NCBI GenBank assembly: GCA_025399215.1
Contig: MU621328.1
Span: forward strand, 1 to 25,700
Source: Globomyces pollinis-pini
Taxonomy: Eukaryota; Chytridiomycota; Chytridiomycetes; Rhizophydiales; Globomycetaceae
Direction of reading: 5' to 3'
DNA: 25,700 bases
The position numbers were made by a program, and so were the translations under genes. The notes under the pieces are model-generated. The model was not told where the DNA came from and did not search any database. It was given only the letters and a program-made list of their open reading frames with translations. Of the stretch, positions 17,053 through 18,322 are shown one piece after another (within the stretch, counting starts at the first letter, position 1; each line of letters begins with the position of its first letter).

Positions 17053-18322
17053 TTATTGAGGTTGAGAATAAAGAGCCTCATTGGTGACAACAAGTTCATC
17101 CAATTCAGGAGATAACTCAGACAAGAATTCAAAAGCAGCTTTGTGATATTGCAATTGGATTGCTACTAAATCAGCCAAATTTCGCAATGGTTTTCCATTC
17201 TCAACAACCAATTTCATCTTACCCATTGCTTCATCAACAGCAGCTACAAATTCATCCTCAGATTCAATCATTTCGGCACGGACAGCTTCTGCTTTGGCAG
17301 CTGGAGCGGATTTTAATCGAGCACGGCAAGAATCGTAAGTTAATCTACAGGATTGGACGTTACGGCGAGCTTTCTAAAAGTATGAGTTGAACAGTATAGT
17401 ACCATTGCATCAGCAATAAGTGATTCTACACTTTCATTGAAGGGTGTGTAAAATTTGCGAACGGCATCTTGATCCTATACGTAAAGATAAACAAATAATA
17501 GTATTTCATACTTGTTGAACTCTGGCATTTCCAATTCTCTCCTCAGTCATTGCGAATTTCTTTAAAGCAGAGCCTGATGGCATTAAAATAAAGTCGAATA
17601 CCAAGTGGTTCATCGATTCCAACAAGTTCTGAACCTTGAAATCCAGCTTTAGCGAAGGCATGAGAAAGACTTGGAGGTACTTCAGCATGTCCGGCTTTAG
17701 ATCCATCTTGCAAGGTTGTACCAGCAAGTTTGTCTGCCAAGCTTAAAGTTGTTGCACTGACAGAAGATGCGAAATCAGATAATTTGTCGACAGTTCCTGG
17801 ATTGTAATCATATGCTGTAGTAGTGTAGTTCTTTGCGACTTTGAGGAATTGTTCATGAACCTAATATGAGTTTGATAACCAGTACAATCTTCAAACGATC
17901 AACACGATCTTCCAATTGACGATATTCAGCTGGTAATTCAGTAACATCTGCGGAAGAACCGATTTTTTCCTTTGCAAACTATCAAGATTAACTAAAATTA
18001 AAACTTACTTGTTGCACTTGAACCTAAAAAATGAGAGATTGAAGCGATACCTAAACATGAATAAAAAGGTTGCTCTACATACCTAAAAGTCAATTAAAGA
18101 TAAAAACAAACCCATTGTTTTCCAGCATTTCCAGCAAGTGGTTTTAAAGAAGCAGTAAAGGATGAAAAAGCAGAACTTAATGACCCTGCAGCAGCGTTTA
18201 ACCCACCAGCTAATTGTTCTACAAAGGATCAGGAACACTTCACTAACCTAAGACTGTTAATATATGATTTCAATACCTAAAGAATAAACTTTTGGGTTGT
18301 CAATCATACCTTGAGTCGACAT
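17053..18322 (-). CDS. BAR-domain protein, fungal Gvp36 type
   Basis: Membrane-curvature protein of the fungal Gvp36 family (Golgi/endosomal vesicle traffic). Exons: 18322-18310, 18218-18112, 18023-18009, 17978-17886, 17860-17602, 17573-17512, 17474-17403, 17373-17053; 313 aa. Amphipathic N terminus, then VTELPAEYRQLEDRVDRLK, TTAYDYNPGTVDKLSDF, FAKAGFQGSELVGIDEPLG, FAMTEERIGNARVQQDQDAV, the typical BAR helix KARRNVQSCRLTYDSCRARL, and EDEFVAAVDEAMGKMK with LRNLADLVAIQLQYHKAAFE. The order and spacing match the fungal family throughout. Introns 1 and 2 are 91 and 88 nt and each consists of three end-to-end micro-introns (separate entries). Exon 1 is 13 nt and exon 3 is 15 nt (VQVQQ). Convergent with RQT4 over 50 bp. 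Confidence 0.93.
18024..18111 (-). other. Stack of three abutting micro-introns (BAR gene intron 2)
   Basis: The 88 nt between GKQW and VQVQQ divide at AG|GT junctions into 29 (18111-18083), 32 (18082-18051) and 27 nt (18050-18024). Ends are TTTTAG, GTTTAG and TTTTAG; starts are GTTTG, GTATG and GTATC. The first unit has a TTTAATTGAC branch-like box. No bases lie between the units. Confidence 0.7.
18219..18309 (-). other. Stack of three abutting micro-introns (BAR gene intron 1)
   Basis: The 91 nt between exon 1 (MSTQ-) and exon 2 (-EQLAGG) divide at AG|GT junctions into 33 (18309-18277), 29 (18276-18248) and 29 nt (18247-18219). Each starts GTAT/GTTA and ends TTTAG, CTTAG or TGTAG. The middle unit has a textbook ATTAAC branch box. 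No bases lie between the units. Confidence 0.7.

Follow-up and report, generated by a model that had tools for sequence, protein, structure and literature searches.

Two stacks of abutting micro-introns in a BAR gene

Globomyces pollinis-pini is a chytrid of the order Rhizophydiales. The stretch of its genome analysed here (the window, 25,700 nucleotides, contig C239 of our scan) carries a gene on its minus strand that matches Pfam BAR_2. Its first two introns are much longer than its neighbours' typical length and divide into three units each:

18310..18322, minus strand: coding exon 1 of the BAR gene, ATG TCG ACT CAA G
18219-18309, minus strand: stack 1 (BAR intron 1), 91 nt, units of 33/29/29 nt
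18277..18309, minus strand: unit 1a, 33 nt, GTATGA...TTTAG; open in frame, not in the public protein
18248..18276, minus strand: unit 1b, 29 nt; branch box TTAAC, 9 nt from the end
18219..18247, minus strand: unit 1c, 29 nt; branch box CTGAT, 10 nt from the end
18112..18218, minus strand: exon 2, EQLAGG...KQW
18024-18111, minus strand: stack 2 (BAR intron 2), 88 nt, units of 29/32/27 nt
18083..18111, minus strand: unit 2a, 29 nt; branch box TTGAC, 7 nt from the end
18051..18082, minus strand: unit 2b, 32 nt; no YTRAY box
18024..18050, minus strand: unit 2c, 27 nt; no YTRAY box
18009..18023, minus strand: exon 3, 15 nt, VQVQQ
17053..17978, minus strand: remainder of the gene; its introns are single, and two of its exons match Pfam BAR_2

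The initial annotation held that the 91- and 88-nt introns split exactly at AG|GT into units of 33/29/29 and 29/32/27 nt, and the coordinates bear this out, the units tiling both introns with no bases between neighbours. It also credited the units with plausible donors, acceptors and, often, branch boxes. The splice site part of that claim stands, as all six units start with GT and end with AG. The branch signal is weaker than claimed: a YTRAY box lies 5–20 nt from the 3′ end in three of the six (1b, 1c and 2a), and the box of unit 1a lies 23 nt from the 3′ end, beyond that range. When the two blocks were shuffled with dinucleotide composition preserved, tiling arose by chance in 54 of 20,000 shuffles of the 91-nt block (0.27%) and 32 of 20,000 of the 88-nt block (0.16%). 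In a unit-to-unit comparison of the six units, no sequence likeness stood out.

Both blocks were picked as introns by a home-made, two-strand gene finder that gave no credit for inner AG|GT sites. For training it was given 150 kb from C1, 100 kb from C2 and the window (275.7 kb in all; 1,664 bases of C1 and C2 were N). It placed the start of BAR exon 1 too far upstream. Coding support was 9.6 for the 88-nt block and below 3 for the 91-nt block, which adjoins the 13-base first exon. A support test in which one exact intron was forbidden proved uninformative, because inner sites of the stack took the place of the forbidden intron.

Removal of both blocks yields a product of 313 amino acids, identical over its full length to BC833DRAFT_602662 [Globomyces pollinis-pini]; the public annotation omits each block exactly, as a whole. 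At the first junction the closest of nine aligned relatives, from Boothiomyces, starts MSAQEQ as compared with MSTQ|EQ here, and the remaining relatives have still shorter N-terminal starts. The second junction, KQW|VQV, is continuous, with no gap, in all nine. Just inside exon 2 the Globomyces protein has four residues (LAGG) beyond those of the relatives. Together, the protein and the alignment vouch for the outer limits of both blocks, and they lend indirect support to excision of the blocks from the transcript. A reading of unit 1a as an exon was ruled out, since the 11 additional residues that it would encode occur neither in the public protein nor in any of the nine relatives; unit 1a is thus no conserved exon.

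Predicted introns in a 275.7 kb sample

The gene finder predicted 601 introns in genes with at least 300 coding bases, with a sharp peak at 23–36 nt and a mode of 29 nt. Lengths of 23–36 nt were found for 410 of the 609 predicted introns, and the six BAR units therefore lie within the range of single introns here, as originally stated.

Predicted introns of 44–74 nt could be tiled into GT..AG units of 23–36 nt in 8 of 49 cases, where shuffling gave a mean of 1.05 and a maximum of 4 (300 rounds). For predicted introns of 75–110 nt the figure was 3 of 48, with a shuffle mean of 0.04 and a maximum of 1 (300 rounds); the three were the two BAR stacks and C2:6657-6748. Coding support was weak (below 3) for five of the eight tiling doubles, as for the 91-nt BAR block. 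The initial annotation had pointed to two genome-wide signs of such stacks. One, an excess of AG|GT at the division points of longer introns, was obtained in these comparisons (8 against 1.05 and 3 against 0.04). The other, length peaks at two and three times 29 nt, failed to appear: in the gene-finder sample no clear peak rose above the flat tail of longer predicted introns, a tail that we take to consist largely of false joins.

Longer introns without such structure were also found. Among predicted introns of 44–110 nt with coding support of at least 6, 4 of 31 tiled and 27 did not, and strongly supported single introns of 37–86 nt without AG|GT tiling lay beside 29-nt introns (for example C1:111575-111654 and C2:68018-68103).

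Junction patterns in the whole genome

The genome (18,547,825 bases in 459 contigs) was scanned for chained AG|GT junctions at intron spacing. The strict two-junction pattern TAGGTATN{18,26}TAGGTAN{19,27}TAG occurred at 89 places, the BAR gene being one, when overlapping places of one array were counted apart; the reversed pattern occurred at 11. At a unit length of 40–48 nt the same pattern gave 1 place, and 13 when reversed. A three-junction pattern was found at 22 places as against 1 reversed, and two TAGGTAT junctions separated by any gap of 10–40 at 119 as against 42.

A looser chain scan of the 275.7 kb sample gave 19 doubles at intron spacing as compared with 15 and 11 at other spacings, and 4 triples as compared with none at either. 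Reversed sequence gave 63 doubles and 5 triples at 24–35 nt, 59 doubles at 40–51 nt, and 49 doubles and 1 triple at 56–67 nt, thus exceeding the real sequence at all three unit lengths. This excess was put down to different word content, and spacings were therefore compared instead of the reversed control. As the doubles barely exceeded those at other spacings, a good many of the isolated AG|GT pairs must be noise; the firm evidence lies in triples and rows of greater length. The tiling of both BAR introns is confirmed, and such tiling is not confined to the BAR gene.

Several pattern places, including the 6-unit row of L033, fell within 4 kb of each other at G000:C152 around 37000-40650, a possible regional hot spot.

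Arrays in other genes

Twenty arrays were chosen for inspection, 17 from the three-junction list and 3 from the two-junction list; one of these 3, L044/C264, was selected for the visible likeness of its copies. The program tiled eleven loci (12 introns), and two more were tiled by hand (L031/L048 and L043/L049); no complete tiling was obtained at L027, L030, L032, L034, L037, L039 and L040. Across all arrays seen, the number of abutting units ranged from 2 to 12.

The longest array, of 12 units and 365 nt, lies inside the kinase domain of a MARK-like kinase gene, whose joined exons run gaplessly across the array position when aligned with a Boothiomyces relative and a solved MARK kinase. The model of this gene retains a 9-residue stretch absent from its relatives, perhaps an intron at another site that the model failed to remove. 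A UBE2H-like E2 gene has 7 units, set by hand, and its exons join as in solved E2 enzymes. A pantothenate kinase gene has 9 units, likewise set by hand, with exons joined as in CAB1; two further rows of 6 and 5 units in this gene (L049, G000:C451:2500-4900) were set by hand without homology support. Three rows in one gene suggest that arrays may cluster in some genes. In the Ran gene there are 3 units, two of them identical, and the joined exons align gaplessly with a related or solved protein.

Other rows lie in genes whose names we presume from their sequence: 6 units in what we take to be a SANT-domain-like gene, 4 in a presumed pyruvate dehydrogenase kinase-like gene and, in the list-order set described below, 4 in a presumed gamma-tubulin-like gene. 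The gene at L044 (G000:C264:22060-22740) presumably resembles the splicing factor RBM22/Slt11; its row has three units, two of them nearly identical.

The list-order set consisted of the first 20 two-junction places outside the chosen set, with units of 22–40 nt allowed. Ten were fully tiled, as arrays of 2–8 units; one of the others was a single 27-nt intron only, six lay in predicted introns without whole tiling and three in no predicted intron. In intron 152-371 of L067 (G000:C75:41080-41690), ATA stands between several units (TTAG-ATA-GTAT), around two units that abut directly. These spacers are perhaps repeated 3-nt exons, or the trace of a unit duplicated together with three bases of exon.

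Among the 120 public matches listed, none was a Globomyces protein for the MARK-like kinase gene or the pantothenate kinase gene, the best identities among the listed matches being 64% and 77% respectively. The longest arrays are therefore without independent annotation. In these two most array-rich genes annotation may have failed, or splicing may differ from that proposed here.

Origin of the units

Neighbouring units were compared with pairs drawn from different arrays. Adjacent units exceeded the 99th percentile of between-array pairs in 15 of 69 cases in the chosen set together with the triples of the sample; for the list-order set the count was 5 of 30. In the 16 arrays of at least four units, the similarity of true neighbours was reached by shuffled order in none of 500 trials. 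Identical or near-identical neighbours were found at L035, in the pantothenate kinase gene and at L044, which points to tandem duplication.

The ends of the arrays are informative as to how copies might arise. The exon before an array ends in AG in 14 of 29 cases, compared with 83 of 327 for single introns (P = 0.015), and terminal microhomology averages 2.3 nt for arrays and 1.3 nt for single introns (P = 0.0001), in a test that includes two hand-set array ends without homology support. The final six bases, TATTAG, are common to the exon and the first unit of the Ran array. AG exon ends and longer terminal microhomology fit slippage between short repeats at intron ends.

The initial annotation proposed that introns had been inserted or duplicated at a splice junction. 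Abutting introns and duplication in place are supported genome-wide by the tiling excess, rows of up to 12 units, some near-identical neighbours and kept junctions; among the six BAR units themselves no likeness stands out. Because of this, duplication of the BAR units would follow from the class of arrays to which they belong, rather than being seen in the BAR gene.

Repeated insertion of introns from elsewhere at an AG|GT junction, whether as introners or as reverse-spliced lariats, is unlikely. AG|GT would be a natural target, and most neighbouring units are dissimilar, as expected if they came from different source introns. No intron family was found, however, in a comparison of 538 introns and units drawn from roughly 1.5% of the genome and from the inspected arrays, where 18 pairs from different loci scored above 0.5 and the best scored 0.64. 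A genome search that passes over very common words gave no second match at E 0.001 for either the 12-unit array or the BAR region, and the greater likeness of adjacent units than of the same units in shuffled order is also against insertion from elsewhere.

Inner units resemble working introns

Splice signals were scored in 19 arrays, comprising the chosen set and the three triples of the sample. Mean donor and acceptor scores of array units, inner ones included, were near those of single introns. A YTRAY box 5–20 nt from the end was present in 33 of 50 inner units, compared with 13.3 expected from shuffles; the corresponding counts were 14 of 19 for first units, 11 of 19 for last units and 196 of 327 for single introns. 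With GT donor, AG acceptor and branch box, the array units would fit U2-type spliceosomal introns.

If rows were cut from their outer sites only, inner sites would be expected to decay. We therefore searched the genome for the three-junction pattern with one base of the middle junction changed. Change of the tolerated fourth donor base gave 16 places, whereas change of the donor G, the donor T or the acceptor A gave 0, 0 and 0. Change of the acceptor G gave a single place, which was spurious, the same place having also matched with an intact junction. Although the test covers one strict junction word and the counts are small, the near-absence of broken junctions favours use of the inner sites, and we infer that the units are spliced individually, each as an intron in its own right.

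These results bear on whether the BAR introns are simply single introns of 91 and 88 nt, excised in one step, with inner AG|GT sites that are due to chance or unused. The public annotation drops each block exactly whole, and units 2b and 2c have no clear branch box. With 27 of 31 supported introns of 44–110 nt untiled, single introns of greater length are commonplace in this genome, and a single cut could remove each BAR block; the well-supported single introns of 37–86 nt likewise mean that length alone does not compel stepwise removal of the 88-nt block. Against this, tiling of each intron has the low chance frequencies given above, with both introns in one gene, the whole-genome excess (89 against 11) is not seen at a unit length of 40–48 nt (1 place), and broken inner junctions are practically absent in the tested pattern. 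We consider one-step excision of plain single introns distinctly improbable.

Growth of the rows as minisatellites inside an intron, spliced as one block with inner sites that are functionless copies, is very unlikely. Some neighbours are indeed identical or nearly so (L035, pantothenate kinase, L044), and outer-site splicing of a block would need no inner sites. Of the adjacent pairs, however, 54 of 69 in one set and 25 of 30 in the other do not exceed the 99th percentile of between-array pairs, so that many arrays look old, yet in the pattern tested essential junction bases were not seen broken while the tolerated base varied. Inner units also carry branch boxes, and a 365-nt block would be far above the typical local intron length.

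A model for the growth and removal of intron arrays

Judged from the sequence, we think it probable that each of the two long BAR introns is three ordinary GT-AG micro-introns separated by zero-length exons, and that the stacks belong to a genome-wide class of arrays that grow by tandem duplication and whose units are mostly removed one at a time. A whole intron unit would duplicate in tandem, probably when the AG ending the exon (or the GT starting the exon) slips against identical bases at the intron end, such that copies join exactly at AG|GT and the array grows. Any donor could then pair with any later acceptor, which would make a row harmless: every partial product would keep a complete donor and acceptor, and all orders of removal would lead to the same mRNA. 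Units would mostly be removed singly by intron definition, as zero-length-exon splicing. The BAR stacks may share this origin.

In more general terms, and with somewhat less assurance, we favour the view that micro-introns here behave as a splicing-neutral tandem repeat, duplicating in place at AG|GT into rows of up to a dozen, each unit being kept working by its own removal. Introns would thus be gained without a new exon position, and zero-length-exon splicing would be routine in short, intron-defined genes.

Comparison with known systems

Recursive splicing in Drosophila and vertebrates uses juxtaposed acceptor and donor sites (AG|GT), and removal of a segment rebuilds a donor at the exon end, as proposed for the arrays. 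Known intronic ratchet sites are described from long introns, and in Drosophila they depend on a cryptic exon located there (PMC8605326; see also PMC10156609, PMC2773006). The segments here, in contrast, are mostly 23–36 nt with up to 12 in a row, a layout that favours intron definition; the BAR blocks, of 88 and 91 nt, and even the longest array, of 365 nt, are not long introns in that sense.

The stwintrons of ascomycetes are also complex fungal introns, built from two or more U2 introns that are excised in successive reactions. There the inner intron splits an element of the outer intron, be it donor, acceptor or branch site, and so must leave first (PMC8469720; see also PMC9024468). Stwintrons of the [D1,2] type begin GGT (PMC8469720, PMC7138796), and in Lipomyces starkeyi abutting donors permit excision in one step or two (PMC7138796). 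In the arrays, by contrast, no element is interrupted; the units abut with whole ends, and any order of removal would work.

Dual-specific AGGT sites, as in polyubiquitin UBC and VCX3A, resemble the array junctions in that a tandem AGGT is usable as both donor and acceptor. Such sites have been linked to repeat expansion, and in UBC the repeat units encode ubiquitin monomers, of which splicing varies the number retained (PMC10809524). The array units differ in being non-coding introns, all of which are omitted from the protein. Introner elements, such as those of Amoebophrya (PMC7789003), are likewise introns that multiply within a genome, but they form dispersed families, whereas the copies here are adjacent and the sample comparison revealed no dispersed family.

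Tiny introns are known from ciliates (PMC5014332, PMC9505925) and Trichomonas (PMC12316389), with no rows mentioned in the available parts of these reports. Among the matches listed from the open-access literature, no title or opening of an abstract described rows of abutting micro-introns, in agreement with the earlier statement that no case of abutting introns of this size had been described.

The arrays suggest that introns can multiply in place and yet be cut out cleanly. If their units are spliced singly, they would represent zero-length-exon splicing on a miniature scale, with as many as twelve units in a row. Duplication in place, if true, would offer a simple route to intron multiplication, with stages from identical to unrecognisable copies. 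Several questions become testable: the minimum length of an intron when the upstream exon end is a fresh junction, whether one exon end can serve the spliceosome twelve times over, and why rows are tolerated. Gene callers may fail at such rows, as may have happened in the two array-rich genes with no Globomyces protein among the 120 listed matches.

Lengths divisible by three were rarer than expected among array units (29 of 128; P = 0.006); the figure for single introns was 109 of 327.
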